A stretch of DNA of 64,000 bases from Spiroplasma endosymbiont of Atherix ibis (GTDB taxonomy: Bacteria; Bacillota_I; Bacilli_A; Mycoplasmatales; Mycoplasmataceae): positions 186,001-250,000 of the forward strand of contig NZ_OZ026474.1 of the NCBI RefSeq assembly GCF_964020005.1, in the 5' to 3' direction. A program made the position numbers and the translations under genes. Below, piece by piece: positions 9,120-61,607 of the stretch. The first letter of the stretch is position 1. Each line of letters starts with the position of its first letter. The notes beneath the pieces were generated by a model. That model was not told where the DNA came from and did no database searches. It saw only the letters and a list, made by a program, of their open reading frames with translations.

Positions 9120-10292
9120 ATATTTATAGTAATTTTCAAGTTTTAATGGAATTACTATTAAAATAGGTATTACATAAAATTGTATTGTAAATAGACCAGA
9201 GAATAAAGAAGATAAGAATTCAATAGTAGAGTTTTTATATTTTCCAATTATTTTTAAAAAAGTATAGACAATACTTGTAATGTTTAAAATTAATGCAAAT
9301 ATGTATAAGAATAAATAGACAAAATCATATAAGATTTCATTTTCAGTTTTAAAATTATATTTTTTTGTTTTTGTTAGCATATATATTATTAAACCTATTA
9401 AAACTAAATTAATACAGATTTTAATTATGCTCAATATTTTTTCTTCATAAGTTACTTCAAACTTTTTATTTTCTTTATAAATATTTTTTTCCTTAACAAA
9501 TAAATTGTTTATTCAAATCATTAAATATTGACATGCTGTTATTAAAAATAAACATCCCATTACTCCAAAAGTAAATAATTCCAAACCATTTTTAGCTGAT
9601 AAATTAAAGAAAAAATAATGTGTTGATAAAACTTAAATATTTAAATCTGTAACTCACTCATAATCATTTTCAAGGAGTCATTAATAGTTTTTTTCTGAAA
9701 TATTTGAAATATAATATTCTGAACCAATATTGTTCATTTTTATCATTCTTGTCATTATAAAAATAAGATAAAATACTAGATAAATTCATCCTTTTAATAG
9801 ATTATTTTTATATCAGTTTGAGATATCAATTTTTTCTTTTTTTACAGCAATAAAATAATATGATAAGGAAATTATGTAAGTTACTAAATGAGTTGTAACT
9901 GTTATAAATCATTTTAATATGCTATCGTATGCATTTGAATAAGATACTAATGGATTAGTATCAATATCATGATTTGAAAGAGTAGCAGATAAAGCTGATC
10001 AAAATAATGCCATTGTTAATGTGAAATAAGCTAAAAAGTTTATTCAAGCAACTTTGCCAGGTCTTCATAATCCTCATTTACCATTTAATGCAACAAATAA
10101 AAAGAAAATAAAAAACATTCAATTTGTTTGTGTTGTTCAAAAAGCTAAATCTGCAAATATTTTGTTTACTCATCCAAAAATATGATATCTTGGAGCAGGA
10201 TCAACTTGCGCCATAATTGCAGATATAACTAAAAAACCAAAAAAATAAATAAAGAATAAATATCAGCTTATAATTTTTAATTTTCTTTTCAT
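9096..10292 (-). pseudogene. Polytopic membrane protein split by a nonsense codon, possibly Pr6Pr-like
   Basis: Reading from the ATG at 10292 (behind GAGGAAAT) gives a membrane protein of 398 codons in a single frame, interrupted by TAA at 9633-9635 after residue 219. The first half has about five membrane segments, including AFWTTQTNWMFFIFF and WINFLAYFTLTMALFW. The second half has four more. The order and the aromatic-rich TTQTN segment recall Pr6Pr-type membrane proteins, but this is weak. Both halves keep the same frame, so a single base change could restore the gene. Function unknown. Confidence 0.65.
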
Positions 10293-13235: not shown

Positions 13236-15302
13236 ATGAAAAATGTTTCTTCACAAGCTGAAGGAAAATCTCAAAATAAATTTGTAGGATCTATGAAAAA
13301 GATGGGTAGAAATATTATGCCCACACTTTCAAAGTTAAGCAAAGCGTTTTTATTACCAATTGCCTTATTACCAATTGCTGGTGTTTTTCTAGGTGTTGGT
13401 TCTGCTATTGCAACAAATTCTGCAGATGGTAGTTTTGGATTTTATTTTGGTTCTGTTTTGAATAAAATGGGTGACGTATGTTTTGGTAATTTACCTGTTC
13501 TATTTTGTATTTCTGTTGCTTTAGCATATACAAAAGATTCAGGTATTGCAGCATTGACAGCTGTTGTTGGATTCCTAGTTATGAATGGAATGCAAGCTGC
13601 TTTATTACATACACAAACAGTTGATCCATCAAGCGTATTTGTATATGCTAAAACAGACTGACATCAACTTTATCAAAAAGTTGGAGATGTTTGAAAAGAA
13701 AATTGAGATAATTTTAATCTTCAAGATATAGAGAAGTATGTTAGTGCTTCAAGCATAGGCGAAGCAGCTAATGGTATTGCAATTAACTCTAAATTAGAAT
13801 TAATTGATGGTGCTGGAAGTGTTTATTATTCATTATTGTGAATTAAAAAAATTCCTAATGGATTAATTACATCTAATATTGGTGTTAACTCATTAAATAC
13901 AGGAGTATTTGCAGGTATTTTTGTTGGTGCTATTGCTGCAAAATGTTACAATAAATTTCATGCTACACAATTACCAGCTGCAATTAGTTTCTTTTCAGGA
14001 ACAAAATTAGTTCCTATTATTACTTTTGGTGCTGTTATACCTTTATCATTTATATTTATGTTTGCATGACCTTATTTGGGAATGGCATTGGCTGCCTTTG
14101 GTAGAGTTTCAGGTAAATTACCATTTGGTGTAGATTCATTAATTTATGAAGTTGCAGAGCGTTCATTAGTTCCATTTGGATTACATCATGTATTTTATGC
14201 ACCTTTATGATGAACAAATGCTGGAGGTTCAATTGCTGAAGCATTTAATGGAGCAAGTGAAGCTCAACAAAAAACTTTTGTTGAAATTTGAAAAGCAAAT
14301 CATGATGTATCTTTATTGGGAGGAATAGAAGTTACTTTTGAAAATATTAAAAAATTAATAAGTAGGTCATATCCTGATTTATGACAATCAATGGGAGATC
14401 AAACAATTGCATATAAAGTTATAGCAAATTCAAAAGTATTGAATTTTACAGATTTAGAAATGCTAGGATTAAATATTGGTAGATTCCAATCAGGAAAATT
14501 CGGATTTATGTTATTAGGTCTACCAATGGCAGGACTTGCTATGTGATTAAATGTTCCTAAAGAAAATCGAAAATCAGTTATGGGAATTTATTTCTCAGCT
14601 GCCTTTACTTGTTTCTTAACAGGAATTACAGAACCAATTGAATATACATTCTTATTCTTGGCTCCTTGATTATTCTATGGTGTACATATGCCTTTAGCTT
14701 CAATTTCATTCTTATTAGCTGGATTATTTAAAACTCACGTTTCAATGACAGTTTCAGGAGGAATTATTGATTATATTGTATTTGGTATGGTACCATTCTT
14801 TGGAAGTCAAGTTATGAGTGCAAAATCATGTTTTGCAGTTTTAGGTGTAACTGGAATAATGGCACCAGCTTACTTCTTCTCATTCTACTTTGCAGTGAAA
14901 TATGGAAAAGTAATGGTTCCTGGCCGTGATGGATCAGCAGAAGCTAAATTAGCAACTAAAGCTGATTACAAAGCTTCTAAAGGACAAAACCTAGATGGTT
15001 CAAAAATTGAAAAAACTAAAAGTTCAGTAGAAGCTGCTAGAATTGAAAAAGCTACAAAAATTATTGAATATTTAGGAGGAGAGTCAAATATTGAAGATGT
15101 TGATGCTTGTGCTAGTCGTTTAAGAGTTACAGTTAAAGATTCTTCTATCGTTAATAAAGATGGTATTATTTCTTTAGGTGGAGCAAACGGAGCTCTTATA
15201 AAAGGTACTAGTGTACAAGTAGTTTATGGTGGAGAGCAAGAAGCCATAAAACCTCGTATGATTAAAATACTTGAAGAACAAAGAAAATATAAAAAATCTT
15301 AG
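13236..15302 (+). CDS. ptsG: PTS glucose-type permease, EIICB
   Basis: A phosphotransferase permease that imports and phosphorylates a hexose, probably glucose. The 688-residue protein begins with a basic tail, then an EIIC membrane domain ([30 protein letters not shown]) with the conserved sugar-site ITEPIEYTF around Glu466. A C-terminal EIIB domain has phospho-accepting Cys625 in DACASRLRV. No EIIA domain is fused, so a separate EIIA is needed. An unusual insertion of about 100 residues (near 140-210) follows the first membrane segments. Glucose rather than N-acetylglucosamine is an inference from the family. Confidence 0.88.
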
Positions 15303-34440: not shown

Positions 34441-34552
34441 GCGTTAATAATTATTGTTGGTTTAAATTAATTTAATATCACATATCTCAAATGACTAAAA
34501 CTTTATAAATTTCAACGTATTAATGCTAGAAAAAAGTAAAAGGAAGAAAAAA

Positions 34553-34870
34553 ATGAATAAATCAAATATTACAAGAAATAACTATAAAATGTTTTGCCTT
34601 ATTATTAAGGATTTTTGATTTAAAAAAGATATTCAAGGTTTATTGGATATAGTTATAAAAATTTGTTTCTTATACAAGCAAAATAAAGAGGTTTGAGAAC
34701 TTTATAAGGAATATCAAATTCTTGAAAAACTTGAAAGAAATCAATTTGCTGTTTTAACTATTATCTGTAAAGATAATAGTTTTGATGAAATAAAAAAGGA
34801 AATTTTAATAATTTCTTTAAGATATAAAAATAGCTTTTCTAATAAAAAAAAGCAATTTAAAGATGATTAA
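34553..34870 (+). CDS. Hypothetical protein, 105 aa
   Basis: ATG follows AAAAGGAAG. The product is basic, helical and soluble, with two Trp from TGA and TGG positions (KDFWFKKDIQG, KEVWELYKEY). It ends 12 bases before the DnaC-like gene, so it may be a replication-associated partner of it. Unrecognised. It is taken as the first gene of the mobile element's gene string, but the true boundary is unknown. Confidence 0.6.
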
Positions 34871-34882
34871 GAAGGTGACATT

Positions 34883-35464
34883 ATGAAAGAATTTAATGTA
34901 GATCAAGATTTACAATATAAATCTTTTGAAAAACTATTAAACTTTAAATCAAAAGAAAAGGGTTTATATATTTTTGGAAAACCAGGAGTTGGAAAATCTA
35001 CTTTTTTACTTAATTTTGCCAAGAATATAAAAAATCAAAAAATAAGTATTGATAATTTTTTAATAGATAAGTATAAAGTCATGTATTTAAATGTTAATAA
35101 TTGAATAAAAGATATTCAAAAAAGTTAAAAATCAGAATATGATGATCCAATAAAAATAAATACATCAGCTAATGTATTACTTATTGATGACTTAGGAAGC
35201 GAGTTTTTTCACAACTCAACTATACCTTATATTTTAGATTTATTTGAATCTAGATATGAATTCATTAAAAAGAATCAAAAAGAAGCAATTACAATAATAA
35301 CTTCTAATTACTCTGTTGAAGAGTTAAAAGGAAAATATTCAAAAAATTTAAATGATCAAGTTGCACTTGAAAGATTATTTTCAAGAATTGAAGGAGTTAT
35401 TAACATGAATATTAAATTTATAGGAAAAGATAAAAGAAAAGAGAACTCTTATATAGAAAGATAG
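34883..35464 (+). pseudogene. DnaC/IstB-type AAA+ ATPase (helicase loader-like) with nonsense codon
   Basis: Walker A GKPGVGKST and Walker B LLIDDLG are both present, then a sensor-like IITSNYS and LERLFSRIEG arginine-finger motif, the layout of DnaC/DnaI/IstB ATPases. TAA at 35126-35128 interrupts the frame after residue 81, between the two Walker motifs, so no active ATPase can be made. Both halves stay in the same frame (193 codons in total). As a family these proteins load the replicative helicase or assist transposases. Here it probably served replication of the element. Confidence 0.82.
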
Positions 35465-35491: not shown

Positions 35492-35662
35492 ATGAAATAT
35501 TTTTTATCGATATTAATATCAAGTTTCTTATCAAAAAAAATAAAATTTATAAAAGATTTAACAATTACAGAGAAATTACCTCAACCTACATTTCATTCAT
35601 TTTTAGTATGTAATAACATATTAGATTATAAATTAAAGGTTTTAGATTATGATAAAAAGTAA
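35492..35662 (+). CDS. Small hypothetical protein, 56 aa
   Basis: A short frame from ATG 35492, 27 bases after the DnaC-like gene and behind a weak AGGT. It begins MKYFLSILISSFLSKKIKF, a short hydrophobic stretch that could be a signal or membrane segment. It overlaps the dam-type gene start by 14 bases. Coding status uncertain. Confidence 0.4.
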   Translation: MKYFLSILISSFLSKKIKFIKDLTITEKLPQPTFHSFLVCNNILDYKLKVLDYDKK

Positions 35663-36497
35663 ATTTATATCACCATTAACATGACCTGGTGGAAAAGCTA
35701 AACAATGAAACTTAATTAAAAGTTATTTTCCTAAAAATACTGAAAAAATGGTCTATATAGAACCATTTTTTGGGGAAGGAAGTTGTGGACTAAATGCGTT
35801 AAGAGAAAATTTATTTAAAAATTATCATTTTAATGATATAGATGAGAATTTAATTAATTTTTGAAATTGATTTGTAGAACTAAAAAATGATAATAGTTTT
35901 AATGATATTATCAATCAAATACCATTTTTTCTATTTTATCCAATTTCTAATTTAGAAAAGTTGAAAAATAGTGAAATGATATCTACAAATAAAAATTTAT
36001 TATTTTTAGTTAATAATAATTTAACTTTTAATGGCCAAAGTTGAGGAACTTTAACTCAAAAAAGATTGGAACAAAATTGAAATTGTAATAAAAGAAATAG
36101 AATTGATTTATGTTTCGATTTATTAAAAGCAAATGAAAATAAAATAAAATTTTCTAATTTTAATTTTTTAAGTAATTGAAGCACTATTAAATTTAATGAA
36201 AGTTTATTTATGTATCTTGATCCACCATATTTTTCAAATAAAGGAAAACCATATAAATATAAATTTACAATTAAACAATTTAATGAATTTAAAAATAAAG
36301 TTGATGAGTATAGAAAATTAGGAATAAAAATTCTAATTAGTTTAGATGATTGTTTTGAAGTTAGAGAATTATTTAAAGATTACTACATTCATGAAGCTGA
36401 GTGAAAATATACTTCTTCGAATACTAAAGGTAATAAAAAATGTAAATTAGGAAAAGAACTGTTTATTACAAATTATGAGGTGAAAAATGAAAATTAA
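35649..36497 (+). CDS. D12-class DNA adenine N6-methyltransferase (Dam-like)
   Basis: A 282-residue DNA methylase of the D12/Dam class. The N-terminal SPLTWPGGKAKQW is the S-adenosylmethionine-binding region typical of the class. [14 protein letters not shown] is motif I and DPPY at 191-194 is the catalytic motif IV. GATC or a related site is a possible target, but this cannot be decided. It overlaps the cytosine methylase gene by 11 bases. On a mobile element, such enzymes usually protect incoming DNA from host restriction. Confidence 0.88.
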
Positions 36498-37704
36498 AAC
36501 ACTAGAGCTTTTTGGAGGAATAGGAAGTCCCAGAAAGGAATTAGAGAATTTAGGGTTAGATATAAAACATATTGATTATGTAGAATGATGAAAACATCCT
36601 GTAGAAGCATATAATCGAATTTTTGATAACAATTACAAAGCACAAGATATTAAAGAATGAAATTTAAATGTAGATATGCTTATACATGGTAGTCCATGTC
36701 AAGATTTTTCAGTAGCAGGAAAAAATGATTTATCTAGTGGAAGATCAATTTTATATAGACGAACATTAGAAATAATTAAAAAAGAATTAAATCCTAGGCC
36801 TAAGGTTGTAATTTGAGAAAACGTAAAAGGTTTAATTTCAAAAAAGAACTTTCCTCATTTTCAACATTATTTAGATACTATGAAAAGTTATGGATATAAA
36901 AATCATTATAAAATTCTAAACTCAAAAGATTTTGGGATTTCTCAAAGCAGAAACAGAGTTTTTGTAATTAGTATTTTAAAAGGACAAGATAAATTTAATA
37001 ATAATTTTAGTTTTGAAAATTTAGAAATAACTGAATATAAACCTTTAAAAGAATTTTTAGAACCGACTAAAGAAATTGGTAAAGAATATTATATAACTCA
37101 AAAATCAATGTCTAAAGCAATAGAAGAAGGTAAAGTTAAAATTATTGATAATGTTGTAGATACAATTCTTACTAAGCAAGTAAGATGAAATAATCAAGGA
37201 GTTCTTAAAATTCCATTAACTACATTTAATCAAGAAAATTATGTTCATAATTTAGATAAAGCTATAGCACCAACATTAACTGCAGGTAGAGCAAATAGCC
37301 GCATTAAAATTGCTATTCCATTATTAGAAATAGAAACTAAAGACTTTATAAATTTTAAAACTATTTCAAGAACGATTGATGGTGAATTAGTAAAAAGATC
37401 GCATAATAGAATTTGAAAAGAAGATAAATATGTCGGAACCATTGCTGCTTTATCTAATACAAAAATTAAGGTTGAAGCAATAGAACCAATTCCTAATGTA
37501 CCAATATTTATTATAGAAGGTAAACCATATCATTTAAGAATTTTAACTCAGCGTGAAGCGTGAAGACTTATGGGTTGAGATGATAAATCAATAGATAAAG
37601 TTATTGATATGCCAAAAACTCATATGTATCATATGGCGGGTAATGCAATTGTAATTCAAGTTTTGGAAGCAATTTTTAAAGAGTTAATAAATATTAAGAG
37701 GTAA
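36487..37704 (+). CDS. DNA (cytosine-5)-methyltransferase (Dcm-like)
   Basis: A 405-residue C5 methylase. Motif I is [15 protein letters not shown], catalytic Cys71 lies in motif [10 protein letters not shown], and Glu111 in motif [18 protein letters not shown] is motif VIII, and LTQREAWRLMG and [11 protein letters not shown] are motifs IX and X. The target-recognition region lies about residues 190-330. It is translationally coupled to the D12 methylase. No recognised restriction endonuclease is beside it. Several TGA codons encode Trp. Confidence 0.92.
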
Positions 37705-44442: not shown

Positions 44443-44473
44443 TAAATTGACAATTAGAAAGGAAAATAGAAAT

Positions 44474-46231
44474 ATGGGTATGTTTCAAGGATTAATTAAT
44501 TATATTTTATGATTACCATGTAAATGAATTTTACAACTTTTAAATGCTGTAAATGATGTTGTAAAATATTTAGCAACAGATTTATTTGAATCAATACTAT
44601 TTGGAAATAAAGTAAGTGATTGAAATCAAGTTTTAATACCTTCAACTTATTATCGAATATTGATAGTAGCTGCTGTGTGTTGATTAATATTTTTAGTATC
44701 AACATTTATATGCCATTTAAAAAAAGATATTATTGAACATGAAGAAACACCAATTACTAAAAAAATTATGGAGTCTTTAAAGTACTCTACATTTTCTGCA
44801 ATTTTGTTAATATTCATTCCTTTATTTGTTTGAATATTAGTAAAAATGACTTCAGTATTAACACAAGGCTTAATGCTTGCTTTTGGTTCAAAAAATACAA
44901 GTATTGCTGATTTACTTTACAATATGGGAAATCCAAATTGAGATGGAAAAATAGTAGAACAGAATGGAATTTATCCTGCTCCAAGTAATTTAACTGAATG
45001 AAATATGATAGTAGAATTAGTAGGATTATGTATAGTTTTTATTTGTCTTTTATTGGTTATGATAAATATTGTTACAAATACTTTTGCAACTTTCTTTTAT
45101 TTTATATTAACTGGTTTTTATGCTTTAACTGCAGTATTTGACCAGGGTGCAAGAATGAAAGATTATTCCAAAACTATTATTGCAAATAACTTTATAATTT
45201 GTTCAACTATGGTTATATTTAGTGTTTATTCAAGTTTAATTCAAATATCGTTTAATTCTATGAATAAACTAGGAATGAATGGTTTTACAAAAATGCTATT
45301 ACAACTTGCTTTAGCTTGTGGAGGAGGATTATTTGTAGTTAATGGAGATCAATACGTTTCAAGATTAGTAGGAGAAAATATAAGTGGTGTAAGTAGTGCA
45401 ATGCAAGGATTGGGTGCTATAAAAGCAGGAGCAATGTTAGCAGCTGGTTTAGGAGTTGCAGCTATGAAAATGAGTAAAAAAGGTTTAATGGGTAGAAAGA
45501 ATTTTAGTAATTCTTTAAAAAATGACTTAAGTGGTTCACAAGATTCTAATAACTTTGCAAATAATCAATCAAGTGAAGAAACTTCTAATGAAACCGTTCA
45601 AAATGGAACTCATCAAAATAAAATGCAACAAGCTAAGGAAAATTTTGTTAAAAATAGACAACAAGCAATGTCAAAATATCAAAAAGGTGGTATTTTAGCT
45701 TTAGCAGGTTTAGGAGTAGCAGCGGCATTTCATGGTACAAAAACTGCTAAAAATTTAGTAGGTTCATTTGTTGGTACAAAAGCAAGTAGAATGATGAGAC
45801 GTGAGCAATTAAAAGAACAAACTAGAACTTTAGGAAAAGGACTAGCAAAACTTGGAGCAAAAACTTTAGGAGTAGCAGGAACTACTTTTGGAGGTGTTGC
45901 AAAAATGACTGGATTAGATGTTACAAGAGGCAAAACTCTAAATGAACGTGGTAATGTTTATCATTCTGATAAACAAGGAACATATAAAGAAAACTTAAAA
46001 ACCGCATTTAATGAAAAAATTGATAAATTAAATGCTATGAGTTCTAATCAAATAATAAATAGCAATGGAATTAATAGAAAAAAAGAAATTCAAAAAGCTA
46101 AAGAAGCACTTATTATAAAAAAACAAAAAAGATTATCTTTAAAATTATTTGATGAGGACTTTACAAAAAAATCTAAAAAATGAGAAAAATATGCTGATGA
46201 AACTAATAAAAATAAAAAAAATAGTGAATAA
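44474..46231 (+). CDS. VirB6/TrbL-like conjugal transfer membrane protein (Mbov_0396-type)
   Basis: A 585-residue polytopic membrane protein with at least six hydrophobic segments in the first 340 residues. These include VAAVCWLIFLVSTFI, LVGLCIVFICLLLVMI and LLQLALACGGGLFVV, then Gly/Ala-rich GLGAIKAGAMLAAGLGVAAM. A long basic, Gln/Asn-rich cytoplasmic tail with more Gly/Ala segments follows. This layout is that of VirB6/TrbL channel proteins and of the ICE transmembrane protein known from Mycoplasma bovis ICE. It sits directly behind leader copy 1 and upstream of virB4, as in other type IV secretion loci. Confidence 0.78.
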
Positions 46232-47333: not shown

Positions 47334-48398
47334 ATGTTAATAGTAGTAACTATTTTTCTAATAATTCTAATAAGTTTAATTATATTTTTTGGAATTTTTA
47401 TACTTAAAAAAATAAAACTACAAAAGATTGATAACAATGAAGTAGATTTAGCTACATATGAACCAGTTAGAGAATTATATAATAAAAAACTAGATGAAAT
47501 TAAAGAATTAGAAAAAGAACGTAATAAATTAAATGAAAAGTTACAATCTACTTTAGAGAAAAAAATAGAAGACCAGTTTATTAATAATATTGAAGAAAAT
47601 AAACAACAAATTAAGGATTTTCAAAAATTATTAGATGAAGTAAATAGATTATTTTTAGGAAATACAAAAAAAGTTGGAACATTAAGTGAAACAATTTTAG
47701 AGAGAATGCTTAATATAATTTGTAATACAGAAATAAAGGGAGCAATAATTAAAAGACAAGATAAAGATATTAATAACAAGATACCAGATTTAATTATAGA
47801 ATCGGATAATAATATTTATCCGCAAATAACAATTGATTCAAAATTTCCAGTTGATACATGAACAAATTATTTAAGTTCTACAAAAAGTGATAATGATAAA
47901 AATGTTTTAGTGAAAGCTATCAAAGTGCATATTAATGATATAAGTGATAAATATATTCATGATTCTGTTCCATTTGCAATTATGTTTACTCCGCTAGAAG
48001 ATATGATATTAAAATTATCTTCTGATGATAGTTTTAAATTTGGTAAGGATCAAAAATTAAAAGAAGTAGGAGAATTAAATTTTTCAGAATTTTGTTTTAA
48101 TAAAAAAATAGTCCCTGTCTCACCAACAACTATAATTGCTGTTTTAACTACATTAGAAAGATATTTTGATTTATTTCAAAAATTAAATGAGGTTGATGAG
48201 AAAACACAAAATATTTCTATCTGAATTAATAAGCACAGTACACTTACAAGTAATTTTAAAACTCTAGGAAGTGATATAACAAAAGTTATAGAAAACTATA
48301 ATAAAATTATTAATAATTTTAAGGATTTAAATAAATCTTCAGGTTTTATTAATTCAAAAGAAATAGAAGAAATAAAAAATAAAATTAAAAATAATTAA
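47334..48398 (+). CDS. rmuC: RmuC-family DNA recombination protein
   Basis: A 354-residue protein with an N-terminal membrane helix (LIVVTIFLIILISLIIFFGI), then a coiled coil (ELEKERNKLNEKLQSTL), then the RmuC nuclease-like domain. Family marks are GNTKKVGTLSETILERML, IDSKFPVDTW, AIKVHINDISDKYI, FAIMFTPLE and the VPVSPTTIIAVLTTLER motif. RmuC limits DNA inversions and rearrangements and is thought to be a membrane-tethered nuclease. ATG follows AAGGAGGAA. Its presence between virB6 and virB4 of a conjugative element is unusual. Confidence 0.85.
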
Positions 48399-48660: not shown

Positions 48661-51600
48661 ATGACTAGAAATCCAATTATTCCAGAAAATACAAATAAAA
48701 GAAAATTTATAATATGACAACAATTAAATTTGACAATTATTGATCTTTCAGTATGAATAATTTTTATAGGTTTAGGAGCAATACTAGGTTTCTTTTTGTG
48801 AAAACTAGGGGGAGTTTGAAAACCTATTGCTATATTATCTGCTAGTTTATGTTTAATTGCAGGATTCTTATTAAATACTAAAAGTCAATTTCATAATAAA
48901 AAATTTTATGCTGTTATATTTGATTGATTTATATTCTTATTTGTAAATAAAAAATATAAATTAAAAATTAAAAATAGTACTTTAAATTTAATACCTTATA
49001 AATCTATTGAAGGAGAATACATTTTATTAAAAAACAAACTCTATATGAGTTTAATAAAAATTCAAGGAAATTCATTTTTTGACTATGAACAAATTAAGCA
49101 AAATAATATATTAGAAAAAATTTGAGAGATTTATAATAGTTTAAAAATGGGAGGAAGCATAATAAAACTTGATGAGTTAAAATCAAGAAATCAAAGCTTA
49201 TTCTTTTTAGAAGAAAAACGTCATGAATGAGAAGTAAAAAGAAAAAATGGAGAAATAAACGATAAACAATATTTTTCTAGAGTAAGACTAATTGAAAAAG
49301 ATATTGAAAAATATTCAAATCTTGAAGCTAATAGTGTATTAGAATGAATTGAAAAATCAATTTATATTGTTTTTTATGCAGAGTCAATTGATCAACTAAA
49401 ACAAATTGAAAACAAAATAATTAATGAATATAGAAGAGCAGATTTAAATGCCCACAAAATTGATATATCTAAAAAAGTTAATGTTTTAAATAAAATAGTT
49501 GATATTGATATACTTGATGATAATGAAAATAATATTTTTAAATATAAAGATACTTTAGATGAATACTTTGGATATGATACTTTAGAAAATAAAGCATCCT
49601 ATTTAAAAATTGATAATAATCTTAAAATTTCAATAGGTTCAGTTGATAATTATCCAGGAGAACCAGATTGTGGTTGACTTGGACAAATCTTTAATATTGA
49701 TAGTCCTGTTATAATTAATTTTAATAAAGTAAGTGATAAAGTTTTTCAAGAGACTTTAAGCAAAGCAAGAAGAACTGCAATAGCAACAGCTAATGCAACA
49801 AGTAAAAAAGAAATTTTAACACAAAGAAAACGTCAACAAGAAATTGAAAAATTAGAAGAATTTGCTGACACTATTGGTTATGGACATGATCAATTATATA
49901 AATTTAATATTTATATAATTAATAAAGGAATTAATAATAAAGAATTAAATAAATCTATAAAAGAAACAAAAAAAATACTAAAACAGCAGAAATTAACTTT
50001 ATTTGCAAATCCTTATAAGCAAATTGAAGCATTCAGTGGAATGTTACCAAAACCTCATGATCCTTTAATGGAAATAAATGGAAGAGAAGTTCCTCTATAT
50101 TCATTAGTATGAGGTATGCCTTATATTAATAATTCTTTAAATGATTTACAAGGTTGATTTATAGGAAATAGTATTGTAGGAGATGAATTATTTTTTAATC
50201 CACATATAAGAAATGAAGAAAGAAGAAATGCTAACATGTTCTTTGTTGCAACAACTGGAGCTGGAAAATCTACAACTATGCAAAGAATGTTAAAAAATGA
50301 AATTCTAAATGGAAATAGAGTTTATGTAATTGATCCTGAAAATGAGTATTCCCGATTTGCAGATTACTTTGGAGAAGATAAGATATTTCTAGGTGATGGA
50401 ATTTATAAAATTAATCCTTTACAAATTATGCCTACATTGTCTGATTTACAAAATGAAGAAGAAAAAGAAAAAATAGAATATAATAAAAAGTTTTGAAATA
50501 TCGATAAAGAGAAAACAATTAGCAAAGAGTTTAATTTAAATGAGGCTTTAATACTAAATCACCAAAGTATAGTAGAAATATTATTTAAAAATTTCTTTAA
50601 TGATATTAGTGAAGAAGATACACGTTATTTAAAGAATAAGTTTTGATTTTTTTATAATTATTGATTAAATAATGCTTCAAATAAAAATATATTAGAATGA
50701 AAAAATAATGAATTTCCTATTTTACAAGATTTTTATAATTGGCTGATTAAAAATAAAGAAAATAATAGTTTGTACAATAAACTAATAGAACTTTTAGAAG
50801 ATGGTTTTGTTATATCTCAAAATGGTCTTAAAAAAGGTAGTTATTCTATGTTTTATAATGGTTATACAAGTATTGATATTTCAAATAGATACTTAACTAT
50901 TTTTGATATGAGTAGTTTAAAAGATGGAAGTGACAAAAGATTACTTTCAATGCAAATGTTTCTAGTAATTAAATTATTGGAAAGACAAGTAAAAGTAAAT
51001 CATGGAAAACAACCAAATGTTGCACAAAGAATAATAGTTGATGAAGCTCATTTGTTAATGGACAAAGATTTTCCTATAGCTTTAGATTTTATATTTAGAA
51101 TGGTAAAAATGATAAGAAAAAGAAATGGGGGAATAACAATTATTACTCAAAATGCAGAAGATTTTCTTTCTAATGAAGAAATAGAAAAGAAAACTAAAGC
51201 TATTATTAATAATAGTCAATATGCTTTTATTATGAAATCAACTGCAAAAAATATTGATAAAATTGAAAGTTTATATTCAGACAGTGATGGATTTACATAT
51301 CAAGAAAAGAGTCACTTAATAGATGCTCCAAATGGAGAAGGTTTACTTATTACATCAAGAACAAAAAGATTTTTATTAAAAATTGATGTTCAGCCAGATG
51401 ATTTTAAAATTATTTCTGGAGATGAAACTGATTTAGTAAAATGAACTTTAAATTATTTAACTACCAGATTATTTAATATAATAAATGGTTTAAAATTTAT
51501 AAATATTGATCAAGAAAATTGTGTAGATATTAATAGAGAAAAAGAAGAAAAAACTTTAATTATTAAGTTAAAAGATAATCATAAAATTAATGAGAGTTTA

Positions 51601-51756
51601 TTAAAAAATAATATTGAAATTGATAATGTAAGAATTATTAATAATTCTTTAGAAATTAATTTTAAGGAATTGCATAAAGAAATAGCTATTAAATTTTATG
51701 ACAAAGTAAGAAAGAAAATCGATTTAATAAGAGGAGGAAAAGAAAGTGATATCTAA
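48661..51756 (+). CDS. VirB4/TraE-type conjugal transfer ATPase (Mbov_0397-type)
   Basis: A 1031-residue protein. Residues 30-85 form two or three membrane segments (VWIIFIGLGAILGFFLW; IAILSASLCLIAGFLL), a PrgI/VirB3-like module fused to the ATPase. The AAA+ motor has Walker A ATTGAGKST with Lys536, Walker B RIIVDEAHLL with Asp794 and Glu795, and TIITQNAEDFL downstream. VirB4 ATPases energise assembly of the type IV secretion channel. ATG follows TTAGGAGAA, behind leader copy 2. Its end overlaps an HU-like gene. Confidence 0.92.
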
Positions 51757-52006
51757 TAATAAAAAAATTTATAAGAGTGAAATTTGCAATACTATTTTTC
51801 AAAGAACTAAAATAAAGAAAAAATATATAAATGTTATTTATGATGAGATTTTTAAAGAAATTAAAAATCAACTTTTAAAAGAAAAAAAACTTACAATTAA
51901 AAATTTCGCTTCTTTAAAAATAAAAAGATATAATAATTCATTTTTTAAAAATTGTTTATCTTTAAGAATTAAAAAATCTTGTAATGGGTGAAAAAATGAA
52001 AAATAA
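51746..52006 (+). CDS. HU/IHF-like DNA-binding protein, 86 aa
   Basis: GTG start at 51746 inside the virB4 end, with AGAGGAGGAAAAG upstream. Under code 4 the frame ends at TAA 52004. The pattern YKSEICNTIFQRTKI at the N-terminus and VIYDEIFKEIKNQLLKEKKL followed by LTIKNFASLKIKRY fits HU (helices, then the 'GFGSF' strand). The long beta arm appears shortened or missing. HU/IHF proteins bend DNA and often form part of relaxosomes. Confidence 0.65.
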
Positions 52007-52445
52007 ATATACTCAAATTTTAATAAGATTTAGAACAGATGAAGAAGTGGAACTATTAAATAAGTTTAAAGCTATTTTTAAGAGTAAAAGTGAAAGTTTT
52101 AACAAATATATTAAGGACATTATAATAGATATTATTGAAAATAATTTAGAAAATAAAGAAATAAATAAAACTAAAAATAAATTGAAGGATAATTTTAGTG
52201 AAATTTTAGAAGAAAATATTATTCCAAGATTTTATGGAATGGTAAAAACCATAAATGAAAAAAATTTAATAAAAATTGAATTATTAAATAGAAAAGTAAA
52301 CTTTTTAATTTATGAATTAGGATTTAATAGAATGATTGATGGTAGACCAATAATTAATGATATTACTGAAAAAATAAAAGAGAAAAATTGAATGCTTGAA
52401 GAGGAATTAAAAATAAATGATGAAATTCAAATTAAAAAGAGTTAG
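51996..52445 (+). CDS. Possible ribbon-helix-helix relaxosome protein, 149 aa
   Basis: Starts at ATG 51996 (an in-frame ATG also lies at 51984) with GGGTGA just upstream, overlapping the HU-like gene by 11 bases. The N-terminus TQILIRFRTDEEVELLNKFK has the strand-then-helix look of ribbon-helix-helix proteins such as MobC-like nicking accessories. The central part is helical and charged. This assignment is tentative. It ends the virB4 operon, just before leader copy 3. Confidence 0.55.
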
Positions 52446-54408: not shown

Positions 54409-54654
54409 TTGAAAGAAAAAATTTTGAAATATTTTGAACAAATAAAAAGTTTATGAAATCAGTTTTTAGAAAAGTACAGTTTTATTAATGAAATAGATAA
54501 AAAGTTTTTATCTGATTATCAAAAAACATTAAATAAAATTGAAATTATCATGAAAAAAATTCAAGTTATAGTTTTTCAAAAAGAAGATGAAAAAATTAAT
54601 CAAATAGATAAAGCAAAAGTTAATAATTTTTATTATGAAAAGGAGAAAGAATAA
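54409..54654 (+). CDS. Hypothetical helical protein, 81 aa (TTG start)
   Basis: The best start is TTG at 54409, with AAAAGGTGAG upstream; no ATG is available near it. The product is a charged helical protein (KEKILKYFEQIKSLWNQFLE; QKTLNKIEIIMKKIQVIV). It is immediately before the relaxase gene, the usual place for a small relaxosome accessory protein. No family recognised. Confidence 0.55.
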
Positions 54655-54655
54655 T

Positions 54656-56020
54656 ATGAATACACCCTTTAATGAATATAAAAATTTTAAATCTCCTGTA
54701 GTTTTTAAAATAAAACCTAAGGATAAGTTGGGAAAAACTAGAAATGATATTTCTAAAAGAATAGAATATTATTATTCTGGAAAAGCTCAAAAAAATAATA
54801 AAACTAAAAATAGAACTTATTTAGATTATATTACACGAGGGGATGCTATTTATAAATTAAATCTAACTAAAAATGAGTTAATTGAATTAAATAAATTAAG
54901 AGAAACTAACTCAAAGGAATATTATAAAAAAATAGAGTATTTAAAAACTGTAAAAGAGGAAGTTACCGGAGTTTGAAGTAAAGAAGGATTAGTAAATGAA
55001 GAAAGATTAGGAGAAATTAAATCTAATTTATTAAAAATAAATCAAGAAAAGCAATTTGTTTGAGATACAGTTATTTCATTTGAATCTGCTTTTGTTGAAA
55101 AGTATAAAATATATTCTCCTGAAATTGTTCATGATGTTTTAAAAGATAGAATAAATATGCTTTTTAAATCTAAAGGCATTAACTCTGATAAAATGGAATG
55201 ATTTTTTACTTTTCATAAAAATACTGACAATCCTCATGTGCATTTATTATTCTTTGAAAAAGAACCAACAAGATGCTTAAAAGGATATGAACCAAAATAT
55301 CATTTTGATAAACATCTTTTAGAGGATTTTCGCTTTAGATTTGCAACTGACTTAATATTAAAAGAACAAAACATAGAGTATAAAGATTTTATGAAAAAGA
55401 GAGAAAATCTTGTAAATCATTTTAAACAAAGTTTAAAAGAACCAATAATTTGACAAACTTCTTCTTGAATGGATGTAAAAGAGATCTATAATGATTTAAC
55501 ATCTGATTATGAAAAAATAGTATATGAAATTAATAAATATAATTATGAAAATAATAGAGCGAAATTTAAAAAAGTAAATTCCTTAAAATATAATCTTTTA
55601 AATAAAACAGAAAAACAAAGAATTAATAAAATTATTAATCATATTTTAAAAAACGATAAAAATATTAGTCAAGAGTTTAAAGTTTATGTAAAAAATTTAC
55701 AAGGTTATCAAAATGCAGTCAATGAAATAAATAATAATAAAGATAGTAAATTTATCTATGAGTCTCTTTATGGCAGAGATGGACTATATTCAAGAATTGG
55801 CAATAGAATTTTGTATGCAATAAAAAGAAATATTGATATATCAAGAAAAGGTATTATTTCAGCAAAATATTATCCAAAAATAAGAAAAATAAGAATCTCT
55901 ATTATAAGTGATTTATTGATTAAAATTTCTAAGTTAATAAAAATTATGAATAGTTATGTTTCATTTGAAACAAATAAAACAGAGGAAATATTTAAAGAAA
56001 GAGAAAGAACTAAAAAATAG
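54656..56020 (+). CDS. HUH relaxase (MobL/MOBP-like)
   Basis: A 454-residue protein bearing the three-His metal motif of HUH relaxases, HKNTDNPHVHLLF, with His187, His194 and His196. Candidate catalytic tyrosines are Tyr55 and Tyr58 in RTYLDYITRGD. VWDTVISFESAFVEKYK between them matches the strand before the motif in MobL-type relaxases. Such an enzyme nicks oriT, stays covalently bound to the 5' end and is carried into the recipient. The C-terminal 200 residues are helical and basic. ATG at 54656 follows AAGGAGAAAG. The nic-like sequence at 59224 fits a MOBP enzyme. Confidence 0.82.
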
Positions 56021-56022
56021 TT

Positions 56023-56298
56023 ATGCAAACTTTAGAACAAATTACTTCTATAATTGGAGCTATAGTTATTCTTTTATTAATAATTTTTATTTGAAAATAT
56101 TTAAAATGTCAAAAAATACTTAGAAAAATGAATAAAAAAGAAATTGATGAAATTACTATTAATGTATTTTTTAGAAAAAAAACTTATTATCGTTTTATTT
56201 TAAAAAATAAAATTAAATTATATAAATTATTTTTGTTAATTTTGTTAATTATTTTTGTATTACTTTTAGCTATTAGTGGAGGAGTTAAATATGCATAA
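56023..56298 (+). CDS. Small two-pass membrane protein, 91 aa
   Basis: ATG at 56023 is 2 bases after the relaxase stop. Residues 7-25 (ITSIIGAIVILLLIIFIW) and the C-terminal LFLLILLIIFVLLLAISGG are membrane helices, with a basic loop between. The stop overlaps the virD4 start by 8 bases, so the two are coupled. Probably a partner of the coupling protein. Confidence 0.62.
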
Positions 56299-59095
56299 GA
56301 TTTCAAAAAAGAAAAGATGATTAGTTACAACTATTTTTTTTCTTATTGGTTTAATTATATTGATTAGTCTTTTTTTATTAATTAAATATGAAATAGTAAA
56401 AGTTAAACTTTTAATAAAGTATAAAAATTTTCTATTTATTCCTTTTATTGGATTGGTAGGATGATATTTTTATATAACTTGAAAAATAATATTTAATAAT
56501 AAATCAAAAAAAGCTGTAAAGAATGTTGATACAAATAAAATAAAAGATTTTGGAATTGCAAGATGAATGCACAATGAAACAGAAATAAGTAATTTAAGTA
56601 AACAAGAAAAAACCTTAAAAGAGTTTCATCATTACTTTGGTTGTGATATTAAAAAATGTTGTAAACCTAAAAAAGAAATAATAAAAAAAGCTGCATGAGT
56701 TATAAATTGTCAATATAGAACAAAAGATAAAAATACTCTTGTTGTTCCTCCATTAGCTAAAAACTTTGAATATTATGATGGAGAAAACAATATTTTAGAT
56801 ACTGAGAAGTATTCAAATAGTTTAGAAAAATGAGAATTAGAAATAGATAAATATCATTTTAAATATAATATTGTATATCATACTTTAGAAAAACTTCATT
56901 TATTAGTAATGGGTTCAACAGGTAGTGGTAAAACTCAAAAACTTATTTTTCCTGGTATTATTAGAAATGCCTTTTTAGATAATAAAGAACAACCAACAAT
57001 GGTAATTACTGATCCTAAAGGAGAAATTTATGAACAAACTAGTGGAATACTTGAATTACAAGGCTATGATGTAAAAGTATTAAATTTTAGAGATACTACA
57101 ACAAGTTATTCATGAAATCCTTTATATATTAGCTGAAAGTATAGAAAAGAAGCTATTAATTATAGAAACGAATATACTTTTGTTAAAACATTTACAAATT
57201 TAGTTACTGTAAAAGAATACATAAATAAAGAAGTTATTGAACTACATAATTCACAAACTCAATTATTATGTTCAATTCATGATACTAAAAATTGTATAGA
57301 TTGTGTTGAAAACTTTCAAAAAGAAATATTAAATAACGGTTGAGAAAAAGGAGAAGAAATAAAATTATATGTTTCAAATGGTAGATTTCATATAAATGAA
57401 TATGACTTTGAAATAAAAGTAGAGAATCATATTAAAAATTTAAAGTCCTTATCTGAAAAAGAGATAATGAATCTAGCAAGTATTATTATTCAAACTTCTG
57501 ATAATGGAGATCCTTTTTGAGTTAATGCATCAAGAACCTTTTTTATAGGAATAGCAGTTATTATGTTAGAAATTATGGATAAAAATCAAGATGCTTTACC
57601 TTTAGAAAAATTTAATATTGTAAATATAATTAAAATGATGGATGAAACAAATTTTGAAGAATGAATAGAGAAATTTAGAGATGTTAAAAATAAAGATGGC
57701 GAGGATTCTTTTGGATTAAATCAAATTCTTACAGTAGTGAATTCAAGTGAACAGACTCAAAAATCCATTATAACAACAGCTAAAGCAGAAACAACTCTTT
57801 ATACTTTTACAAGTGTTCAAGGAATGTTATGCAGTACACAAAATTTAATAAATATGGAAGAAATAGCTTATGGAGAAAAACCCACAATTTTATATTTAAT
57901 TGTTCCAGATGATGATAAAACATTTCATCCTTTAGTAGCTTGTTTTGTAGATCAATTGTATAAAACTTCAGTTAAAGTAGCTACAAATAATAAAGTTAGT
58001 GGTAGATTAAAAGAAGCTACATTATCTAGACAAATTCAGTTTTATTTAGATGAATTTGGTAACTTTCCTAAAATACCAACATTTGCACAAATGATTACTG
58101 TAGCTAGAAGTAGAAATATTTTCTTTATGTTAATTTTGCAAGACTATGGTCAATTAAAAACTGCTTATGGAGAAACTGAATCACAAACTATTAAATATAA
58201 CTGTAATGCAAGTATTTATATTAGAACTAATGATTCATCAACTGCAGATGAGTTATCAAAAGAATATGGAGAAAAGCCAATAGTAGCTTTTAATATTAAT
58301 GATAAGTTTAATAGAGTAGAGAAAAAAGATTATAAAAATAAAAAAGAAGAGGAAACTACTAATGTTACAACTGTTCCTTTAATTAGGGGAAATGAAATAT
58401 TAAATTTAGATGATAATTTTATGATAGTTAAAAAAAGTGGTAAAAACCCTGCTTTGCTTCATTCAATATATTCTTATAAAGTTAAAAAATTTAAAGAATA
58501 TATGAGTTATAAACGTAGTTTTGTTCCTTCTAATTCAATTAATTATAAGAAAAATCACTATTTTAATTTTATAGATAATGATTATCAAGAGTGAATTAAT
58601 TATATTGGAGCAGATAAAGAATTAGCAGAATGAGAGTCTTTAAATAATTTAGATAATTTAGAAATAGAAAATAATTTGGATTTTAATAATAGTTCGATTG
58701 AAGATTATCACAATTATAATTACAAGTCTTTATTAGAAGAACAAAATAAGAATATAGTTTTGCAAAAGCAAAATATTAAATCAAAACACTTAAAAGAAAT
58801 AGTTCAACAAGTAGAAGAAAATGAGGAACTAGATGATGAAAATGAAGAGTTAACTTCAATGTTTTATGACATTGAAGAAAAGTTTAGAAATAAAAAAAGT
58901 ATGAAAGATCAAATAGAAAAAAATTATTTTAAATTAGAAAAAATTAAAGAAAGTTATTATAAATATTCTAATCTGTTACCAAATGAAATGACTACAAAAC
59001 AAAAGCAAGAATATAATAGTTTATATGAACAACAGCTTAAAATAGCTGAAGAAAATAAAAAAATACTTGAGAGATGTAAAAACTCAAAATATTAG
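56291..59095 (+). CDS. VirD4/TraG-type conjugal coupling protein
   Basis: A 934-residue inner-membrane DNA pump linking the relaxosome to the channel. Two N-terminal membrane helices (WLVTTIFFLIGLIILISLFL; FLFIPFIGLVGWYFYI) precede the motor domain. Walker A is MGSTGSGKT with Lys214, Walker B is FYLDEFGNFP with Asp587 and Glu588, and TDPKGEIYEQ is a VirD4 hallmark. A variable insertion of about 130 residues follows the TTSYSWNPLY segment. The last 170 residues are acidic, then helical coiled (EENEELDDENEEL), longer than usual, and may contact relaxase. The oriT candidate follows it. Confidence 0.93.
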
Positions 59096-59119
59096 TTTAT
59101 ATGCATTTATTTTCTTAGT

Positions 59120-59231
59120 TTCGGTTTCACCGAAAAAAATGATATCACTTAACATAGTTTGTGAGAAAATACTCCTTTAAAAAAGGAGTATTTTTTATAT
59201 AAATATGAAGTGATATCACTCTCTATCCTGC
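59120..59231 (+). other. Candidate origin of transfer (oriT) with MOBP-type nic core
   Basis: TATCCTGC at 59224-59231 matches the RP4/MOBP nic consensus (YATCCTG with the nick before the next pyrimidine, here after G59230). Four bases before it lies the perfect 12-bp palindrome AGTGATATCACT (59209-59220). An inverted copy of the flank (TGATATCACTTAACATA at 59140-59156 against TATGAAGTGATATCA at 59204-59218) and a hairpin TTCGGT/ACCGAA (59120-59134) complete the region. It is next to the coupling-protein gene of a locus encoding an HUH relaxase. Confidence 0.6.
59167..59197 (+). terminator. Intrinsic terminator of the relaxase-virD4 operon
   Basis: AAATACTCCTTT and AAAGGAGTATTT pair around an AAA loop, followed by Ts. 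It lies inside the oriT candidate. Confidence 0.88.
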
Positions 59232-59369
59232 TACACTTCGTGAATTAGATATTTATAAATATTGAGTTAAAATTATTAGTTTTAACAGAGAAAATGGTTT
59301 ATACTTTTAATGTATAAAAAATAATAATTATAATAGTTAAAAGAAGAACTAAAGGATAAATTTAATATT

Positions 59370-61049
59370 ATGAAAAATAAGAAATATTATGCTGTTAAAA
59401 AAGGAAAAACACCAGGTATTTATTCTTCATGAAAAGAATGTGAAGAACAAATTAAAGGTTTTTCAGGTCAAGAATATAAATCTTTTTTAACTGAAGAAGA
59501 AGCACAAAAATATTTAGATTTTAATAAAGAAGTTACAGAAATAGATGAATCAAATTTTGTTTTAGTAGCTTATACAGATGGAAGTTTTGATCCTCAAACT
59601 GAAGATATTTTTAAAGCTGGAGGAGTAATTATAAAAGAAAATAAAATAATTAAGAAAATTTCTTATAAATATAAAGAAAAAAGATGAATGTCATCAAACA
59701 ATATAGCTGGTGAAATTGCTGCTGTTATGGAAGTTATTTTATGAGCTATTAAAAATAATTATAAAAATATTCTAATTTATGTAGACTATGAAGGAATAAT
59801 TAAATGATCAAATAATGAATGATTAGCAAAAGAAAATATTTCAAAAGATTTTAAGTATTTTCTAAATGAGTATAAAAAAGATATAATTATAAAATTTAAA
59901 AAAGTTAAATCCCATTCCAATAATTTATTTAATGATTTAGCAGATAGTTTAGCTAAACAAGGAAAGGATTTTAAAAGTGCATCAGATTTAATAAATCGAA
60001 TGTATAATTATGTAAATCCATTTGAAATAGATAAATATATTGAAACTGCAATAACAAAAAAATTTAAAACATTAGAATTAGTTAATAGAAATAATAATAA
60101 AATAAAAGAAGAATTTATTTTAAAAGATACAGTTTCAAACGACGAATTTACTTTTTCTATTAGTAAAAATGGTTTATTTACTATGTATCAAGAAAAAGAA
60201 GAAAATATAAAAAAACAAGGATTTAAGTTTAAAGAATATATCGATAAAAATTTTAGTCAAGAAATTAAACGTAAAAATAAAATAATATCTATTAAAACTA
60301 ATATAATTTCATTTGAAGAAATTTTGAAAATACTTGAAAATTATAATTTTAATAAAATTGATAATAAGCAAATTAATGTAAAGGATGCTAGTGACAATAA
60401 ATTAACTATTAATTTTTATAAGAATTCTTTAGTAATTCAAGGAGGTTTAACTTCACTTTTTATAGAAGTAGTTTTTTTATTAATAAATTATTTTAAAAAT
60501 ATTTTATTGGATCAAGAAATTATCAATATTATTGAAAATATTATAGATGAATTTGATTATGAACAAAAAGAAAATACAGATTTTGATTCAGATATTGAAT
60601 TATTAGAAAATATACCTGATAGTTTAAAAGAATTAATTAGACAGACTCCAAAGTTAATAGTAATTATAAGAAATTATGATGATAATTTTAAAGATTATTG
60701 TTTTATTCTTACATCTACTTTTAGAGTTTTAGAAACTCTAATAGCAGATTTTATAATGAAGAAAAGTTCAAAAAAACCCCCTTTATTAATAAAAAAAGAT
60801 GGTTGAATTAAATTTAATATTTTTAATAAAAATAAAGAGGGTGAAAGAATAATTACAGATAAAACTATTTCAGAGGATAACTCGTTATTGATTATTGAAG
60901 GATATAACCTATATAAAGAATATAGAAATTCATACTTGCATGGAAATTTATTACCTGATAATTTAAAAAAAATAAACTCATTAGAAGAAGTAGAAAATAT
61001 TTTTAATAAAATTTTAGAGTGAATTAAAAAAATTAATGATAAGATATAA
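59370..61049 (+). CDS. RNase H1 fused to a HEPN-type RnlA-like toxin region
   Basis: A 559-residue fusion. Residues 1-45 are an RNase H1 hybrid-binding domain (YYAVKKGKTPGIYSSWKECE). Residues about 64-200 are a full RNase H domain: Asp in AYTDGSF, Glu in NIAGEIAAV, Asp in IYVDYEGI, then VKSHSNN and NDLADSLAKQ. The C-terminal 350 residues end with EYRNSYLHGN, an Rx4H motif (Arg519, His524) as in HEPN RNases, the same spacing as catalytic Arg318/His323 of E. coli RnlA. RnlA is known to need RNase HI for activity. Here both would be one protein. A small gene follows in antitoxin position. RNase H is certain; RnlA identity is inferred. Confidence 0.7.
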
Positions 61050-61073
61050 TACAAAAGAATTTAGGTGATTATT

Positions 61074-61352
61074 ATGAAAAAAATTAAATATTATAAAAAT
61101 ATTGAAAATGATAAATTTGATTTTTTAATATCATTTGAAACTGAAGAATTATTTAATAATTTTATTACTAAAAATAATCATACTAATAGTATAAAGAAAA
61201 ATAATATAGATAATATAGTTTGTAAGGTTAATAAAGATTATTTTTATTTACCTATTAAAGATAATAAAATTGATCTATTAAAGTCAAGAAAAGTTTCAAA
61301 AACATTTATAAATTTTGAAAAATTAATTGTATTAAAAAATTTTTCTATTTAA
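61074..61352 (+). CDS. Small protein in antitoxin position (RnlB-like candidate), 92 aa
   Basis: ATG at 61074 follows TTAGGTGATT, 24 bases after the RNase H fusion gene. The protein starts MKKIKYYKN, then a compact acidic-basic domain (KFDFLISFETEELFNNFI) and FLPIKDNKIDLL. E. coli RnlB, antitoxin of RnlA, is a small protein of about 120 residues, so size and position fit, but I see no diagnostic motif. No upstream promoter is visible, so it shares the transcript. Confidence 0.45.
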   Translation: MKKIKYYKNIENDKFDFLISFETEELFNNFITKNNHTNSIKKNNIDNIVCKVNKDYFYLPIKDNKIDLLKSRKVSKTFINFEKLIVLKNFSI

Positions 61353-61504
61353 TAAGTTAGAATTTAATTATCAAGAAATATAATTAGAGAAAAGCTATTA
61401 TATTTTAATAGTTAATTTTGTATAACTATTTATTTACAAAAATAGCATAAAATAAATAAATTAGATAAATAAAAATGTATATTACTTTAAATAATTTTTT
61501 AATA

Positions 61505-61586
61505 TATAATATAAATAGTTCACAAGAGATATGTTAGGAAACTAACTTATCTCTTTTTTTATTTTCTAGCATATTTTTTAGGAACC
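61505..61586 (+). promoter_or_regulatory. Leader element copy 5
   Basis: TATAAT (61505-61510), AGTTCACAAG, GAGATATGTTAGGAAACTAA, CTTATCTC and T8, then TTTTCTAGCATAT and GGAACC. The downstream arm CTAGCATAT pairs with ATATGTTAG through one G-U. GTTC can pair with the late GAAC. It precedes the pilin-like operon. Confidence 0.75.
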
Positions 61587-61607
61587 AATGAATAAGGAGA
61601 AAATAAT

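Follow-up and report, generated by a model that had tools for sequence, protein, structure and literature searches.

Mollicute conjugative elements have transfer origins (oriTs) that are essentially undefined. That of ICEA is undefined; work on this element could just guess at non-coding regions, and the sole candidate mentioned is a hairpin, TGGCTCAT-N5-ATGAGCCA, in NCR1/A (PMC6030558). Within Spiroplasma, the idea of an IncP-like origin is already known from the Spiroplasma kunkelii plasmid pSKU146, for which such an oriT was predicted earlier (PMC1318496; known here by description). The S. citri pSci plasmids and pBJS-O have been reported to be without an IncP-like oriT, and the pSci plasmids to be without a relaxase (PMC2386487).

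The closest described origins belong to two relaxase groups that are usually kept apart. In the MOBP systems RP4, R64, Ti and Helicobacter tfs4, the nick consensus is YATCCTGY (PMC3772185). For the pWBG749 family of Staphylococcus aureus (OT49/OT45; MobP2/SmpP relaxase), oriTs have been tested experimentally (PMC4652767, PMC8136818). Their core is CTTATGCTCTT, and relaxase-driven recombination between such cores is documented (PMC4652767). The ribbon-helix-helix (RHH) protein SmpO binds two G-NNNN-C sites that lie 65-67 bp apart, with central bases that depend on the subtype and read GATATCA in OT49 (ossA49; PMC8136818). Bacillus subtilis pLS20, the MOBL prototype, provides the one MOBL nic determined biochemically, the sequence of which differs from the core described below (PMC5313138, PMC5675868).

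Here we describe a block that links both groups, tied to MOBL through its relaxase and layout and to MOBP through its core. It belongs to a recurring, alignable family with a predicted nick nucleotide, which makes the oriT question testable. For minimal bacteria, which have few genetic tools, a known oriT would make gene flow easier to study. What is new is the recurring family itself, its tie to MobL relaxases and its swapped dyads; no publications on this family were found in the open-licence literature.

The element and its transfer proteins

The stretch of DNA analysed (the window, 64,000 nucleotides) covers positions 186001-250000 of a complete 1.07-Mb genome (G000) that uses genetic code 4. 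By its gene content, it holds what looks like a mollicute-type integrative conjugative element (ICE) in the Spiroplasma chromosome. The element appears to extend from ~34 kb to ~66 kb in window coordinates, the end being placed there because ordinary-looking chromosomal genes resume at ~67 kb. Its recognisable transfer genes are the following.

44447-46231, + strand: Mbov_0396 family ICE transmembrane protein (NF045889, 157 bits, cut-off 70)
48661-51756, + strand: VirB4 ATPase, Mbov_0397 family of mollicute ICEs (NF045975, 783 bits, cut-off 590)
51984-52445, + strand: small Mbov_0398-type protein with a ribbon-helix-helix-like N-terminus (NF045893, 31.8 bits, below the cut-off of 80)
54635-56020, + strand: MobL relaxase, 461 aa (PF18555, E 2.9e-21, over cut-off)
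56276-59095, + strand: VirD4/TraG-type coupling protein, 939 aa (PF02534, E 8e-42)

The element resembles ICEA and other mycoplasma ICEs in its type IV secretion (T4SS) families Mbov_0396, 0397 and 0399 (PMC6030558). The first two, which we took as the marks of a mollicute ICE, are both present, and the Mbov_0399 match is below cut-off, in a gene cut by the window end. The coupling protein scores 249.5 bits against the CD1115 family, which has a cut-off of 250. The HUH relaxase that an earlier note, made from the sequence alone, placed in this locus is the MobL protein, the only MobL match in G000 by the Pfam model. Its catalytic residues Y65, H194, H201 and H203 are intact and stay invariant when it is aligned with members from Enterococcus, Staphylococcus, Bacillus, Listeria and lactococci, and Y65 aligns with Tyr26, the catalytic tyrosine of Rel_LS20 (PMC5313138). 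Against the NCBIfam MobP2 model it scores 83.6, below the cut-off of 200. The nearest named plasmid sharing this relaxase type is from Spiroplasma corruscae.

The small protein encoded at 51984-52445 is, as a guess, the candidate auxiliary protein of the oriT. Its N-terminus is RHH-like by eye, with no significant Pfam match; comparison with Firmicutes auxiliary proteins gave an hhalign probability of 2%, the aligned stretch being the RHH part, and an AlphaFold model made without an alignment (pLDDT 38) was uninformative. Elsewhere in the element, at 35649-37704 and 47334-48398, are two adjacent genes resembling DNA methyltransferases by sequence and an RmuC-family protein. Just right of the element, a partial UPF0236 match (PF06782; L070 1904-2680, window coordinate 65904-66680) may be what is left of a transposase at the end of the element.

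The block downstream of the coupling-protein gene

The features of interest lie between the coupling-protein gene, which ends at 59095, and the cargo genes that follow.

59120-59135, + strand: small hairpin TTTCGGTTTCACCGAA, left edge of the block
59140-59150: distal dyad half-site TGATATCACTT, ossA-like, 71 bp from the proximal dyad
59166-59194, + strand: 13-bp hairpin followed by a T-run, between the dyads
59209-59220: perfect 12-bp palindrome AGTGATATCACT, the proximal dyad, its centre 9 nt before the core
59224-59231, + strand: nic core TATCCTG/C (TATCCTGC), an exact match to the MOBP consensus YATCCTGY
59232-59242, + strand: conserved 3' flank TACACTTCGTG, at the end of which identity with the closest relative (G019) stops

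Going by MOBP precedents, the + strand would likely be nicked between 59230 and 59231. The palindrome and the neighbouring coupling-protein gene, both of which the earlier note had reported, are as described, the latter ending 129 bp before the core; the gap between palindrome and core, given there as 4 bases, is actually 3 (CTC). The palindrome is ossB-like and may serve as a site for the auxiliary protein or the relaxase. Furthermore, TGATATCACTT pairs with AAGTGATATCA (59208-59218) to give an 11-bp inverted repeat that encloses the 13-bp hairpin. The stem of this hairpin is visible in the sequence and present in the computed fold; it probably terminates transcription of the coupling-protein gene and also contributes to the oriT fold, and it is absent from the output of a terminator scan. 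As DNA, 59110-59260 folds with -26.6 kcal/mol, against -9.6 +/- 2.8 in shuffles (z -6.1). Small hairpins resembling TTTCGGTTTCACCGAA are also found in G005 and in the S. corruscae plasmid.

How unusual is this arrangement within the window? TATCCTGC occurs 3 times, against 0.76 expected, and there are 66 palindromes of at least 12 bp, for which ~0.1 cases with YATCCTGY within 12 nt downstream are expected by chance. Taken alone, the palindrome-core pairing is unusual, and chance is still possible. As such, conservation in relatives had to decide.

Conservation and comparison with MOBL and MOBP origins

The earlier note had proposed looking for the palindrome-nic block in relatives, and at least six other Spiroplasma-family loci carry it. 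In G019, the relaxase of which is 88% identical to that of the window, the block reads GTGATATCACTCTCTATCCTGCTACACTTCGTG. G005 holds an orphan copy (L065 9843-9931, G005:C2:784842-784930) with another palindrome, GTGCTAGCAC in place of the window type GTGATATCAC, that keeps its symmetry and is followed by TCCATATCCTGCTACACTTCGTG. This copy lies beside small fragments of element genes that are homologous to window 34523-35128, and no relaxase or T4SS gene was recognised within ~10 kb of it; it may be an ICE relic or an oriT-only hitch-hiker. On the 29-kb MobL plasmid of S. corruscae (NZ_CP022536), an inverted repeat with 28-bp arms is followed, after 6 nt, by TATCCTGT. A pattern search in 298 genomes and a covariance model (R1) run on 320 genomes added copies in G050 (two), G052, G055 (two) and G026, with palindromes or repeats GTGCGCAC, GTGCGCGCAC or of GTGGCAC-type, and core TATCCTGCT. 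R1 had been trained without the window, G026 and the second G055 copy, and recovers all three (E 0.004, 5.5e-9 and 3.6e-18, respectively). Its strong matches (E below 1e-8) are all within one family, in two genera.

The core TATCCTGCT is identical in the window, G019, G005, both G050 copies, G052, G055 and G026, and TATCCTGC/T is invariant save in one full-length copy. That copy, the second of G055 (L046 3156-3246, G055:C1:77155-77245), has TATACTG and lies in a decayed duplicate element with a broken VirB4 gene. Across two genus-level lineages, TATCCTGCT is the best-conserved stretch of the block, while the palindrome varies, its centre being swapped among ATAT, CTAG and CGCG. In six copies (window, G019, G005, G050a, G050b and G052), the dyad centre nevertheless keeps its place exactly 9 nt ahead of the core, changed but symmetric dyads such as GTGCTAGCAC and GTGCGCGCAC included. 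A nic-proximal hairpin, present in G019, G005, G050, G052 and G055, shows compensatory change at 5/20 pairs, in a small sample of four distinct lineages. Its covariation score is 0.227, against a shuffle mean of 0.122; none of 500 shuffles scored as high, and slid versions were lower too. In the window, G019, S. corruscae, G050, G052 and G055, the coupling-protein gene is followed, 0.1-2.2 kb further on, by the block on the same strand, although the coupling proteins beyond G019 are just 26-33% identical to that of the window.

The block was found in 6/22 MobL-positive and 1/127 MobL-negative genomes (Fisher p 3e-5, kinship ignored). G026 has the block and no MobL match. Most mollicute chromosomal MobL loci, many of them decayed, are without such a block, and no long perfect inverted repeat close to other chromosomal MobL loci has a nic-like neighbour. 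Outside the genomes compared here, the exact 19-mer TATCCTGCTACACTTCGTG has no match in genome_contigs or viral_contigs, and the window and G052 blocks, compared with plasmids and phages by blastn, gave no relevant match. Matches to a GATATC-like dyad pattern in G166, G262, G118, G293 and G081 were set aside, as the hairpin layout is absent there. In G050 (L097), near-identical blocks at 9470-9560 (+) and 14946-15036 (-) stand inverted, 5.4 kb apart, with VirB4 between them.

Because the block is conserved, change in its palindrome and hairpin is compensatory, its spacing is constant and its position after the coupling-protein gene is kept, window 59120-59242 is very probably the oriT of the element, as the earlier note had suggested. 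The label 'RP4/MOBP' given to it there fits the 8-bp core (YATCCTGY), but not the system, in which MobL is the sole relaxase family found in G000, PF03432 is not found and the layout is of MOBL type. Like RP4, R64, Ti and tfs4, the window has the exact 8-bp core and, immediately 5' of that, an inverted repeat (PMC3772185); unlike RP4, it has repeated dyads rather than a single 16-bp inverted repeat, and a PF18555 MobL relaxase, no PF03432 relaxase being detected in G000, G019 or G005.

The likeness to the pWBG749 family is closer in layout. The relaxase is MobL/MobP2-related in both, the paired G-NNNN-C dyads ~65-71 bp apart, the hairpins and a short invariant core are shared, and the ossA of OT49, GATATCA, has the same letters as the window dyad. 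In both, the dyad sequence differs between subtypes and the core is constant, which suggests, by analogy with the staphylococcal plasmids, that changing palindromes may set specificity. The two dyads are at -80/-9 in the window (71 bp apart), with the proximal one beside the core, at -75/-9 in G019 (66 bp) and at -77/-12 in an Enterococcus faecium plasmid (L085), where GTGATATCAC and TGATATCA lie 65 bp apart ahead of its core. Conversely, the core is CTTATGCTCTT in pWBG749 and CTATCCTGCT here; the S. corruscae core, CTTATCCTGTT, comes nearest to CTTATGCTCTT, with 2/11 letters different. The pWBG749 oriT precedes smpO and the relaxase gene, whereas the Spiroplasma block follows the coupling-protein gene, and the putative counterpart of SmpO in the window is the candidate protein at 51984-52445.

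The relaxase is also homologous to that of pLS20, with the catalytic tyrosine aligned, and in oriT_LS20 a palindrome, TGGTACCA, lies upstream as an auxiliary site in an arrangement resembling that of the window. Unlike in the window, the reported nic lies next to a further inverted repeat, at GAATCGGGGGCCGG on the template strand, and TATCCTG is absent (PMC5313138, PMC5675868). A related B. velezensis plasmid also has CTTATGCTCTT. When YATCCTGY beside inverted repeats was considered for Firmicutes MobP2 plasmids, it proved no consistent feature; instead, CTTATGCTCTT after hairpins revealed a layout shared with the Spiroplasma block. All eight MobP2 plasmids read (L082-L085, L088-L091) have CTTATGCTCTT or TTATGCTCTT after a hairpin, upstream of auxiliary and relaxase genes. 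They include the pLS20-like B. velezensis plasmid, in which this core is a few tens of bases from the equivalent of the pLS20 nic, and the latter may deserve re-mapping.

As such, the block combines a MOBL-type oriT layout with a MOBP-type nic core. The MobL relaxases of G050, G052, G055 and the S. corruscae plasmid also match PF03432, over cut-off in the first three, and the passing of this cut-off in the second genus is consistent with a bridge between MOBL and MOBP. A wider reading, which we put forward tentatively and with some doubt, is that of a modular Spiroplasma ICE oriT, with an invariant MOBP-type core, palindromes (ATAT, CTAG, CGCG) swapped between elements, relaxases that bridge MOBL and MOBP (PF18555 and PF03432), and cargo exchanged at the nick by relaxase-mediated recombination.

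Alternative explanations and a proposed transfer route

What else could such a block be? It might be a terminator with a palindromic operator for a regulator, in the gap that separates the coupling-protein gene from its downstream neighbour, TATCCTGC being there by chance. The hairpin at 59166-59194 with its T-run is indeed terminator-like, and the ~0.1 palindrome-core pairs expected per window leave some room for coincidence. We nevertheless consider this highly improbable, since TATCCTGCT is what stays while the palindrome changes at an unaltered 9-nt spacing, and since the downstream genes of the window and G019 are wholly different, an operator for a fixed downstream gene being therefore unlikely. 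A terminator and the oriT may well both be present. It is unlikely, though not far-fetched, that we are looking at a former oriT, now inactive, in an element that moves via another copy or never. Relative to G019, its closest relative, the window copy has undergone a clean deletion of 66 bp between GTGATATCA repeats (iterons) that took the nic-proximal hairpin, and may for that reason be impaired or weaker; its covariance-model score is also weak, at 24.8 bits against 69-110 for most others. However, the core and both dyads are intact, the 71 bp between the dyads is close to the functional 65-67 bp spacing of pWBG749-type plasmids, and the VirB4, coupling-protein and relaxase genes are intact as well.

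The end of window/G019 identity 11 nt past the core, with unrelated cargo beyond, could reflect recombination at the nick, and oriT-core recombination by the relaxase has its precedent in pWBG749 (PMC4652767). Even so, a site-specific recombination or attachment site, serving as a cargo exchange point instead of or besides an oriT, is very improbable: the block sits within the element, away from its ends and, where the element is intact, next to transfer genes, and a second copy flanking the cargo is absent from the window. A hairpin and a conserved nick-like core would also suit a double-strand origin, at which an HUH Rep protein would start rolling-circle replication. Conjugative relaxases are themselves able to drive ICE replication from oriT. 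Yet the nearby HUH protein is the MobL relaxase and no Rep, none of the scanned ORFs matches a Rep family, and the position of the block is tied to the coupling protein, all of which leaves such an origin with the slimmest of chances.

With the block as the oriT, transfer would start with the MobL relaxase (54635-56020) opening the duplex next to the palindrome, probably assisted by a small DNA-binding auxiliary protein, of presumed identity, on the paired G-NNNN-C dyads. The relaxase would then cut the + strand at TATCCTG/C (59230/59231), and Tyr65 would hold it on the 5' end (C59231). The coupling protein, the gene of which ends 129 bp upstream, would take over the nicked strand and export it via the VirB4-powered channel, the DNA 3' of the nick going first.

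The cargo right after the nick (window 59243-61600; L035 11500-14550) is wholly unlike between the sister elements of the window and G019, with an RNase H-like gene in the window and a PHP-like gene in G019, and the flanking transfer proteins are 85-98% identical. At 59370-61049, the window encodes a 559-aa protein with an RNase H1 N-terminal domain (PF01693) and an RNase H domain (PF00075). Its C-terminal part weakly matches the DNA-binding domain of the RnlA toxin (PF19034, E 6.6e-6, just below cut-off), and the protein, placed in the leading region, may serve in defence or anti-defence.
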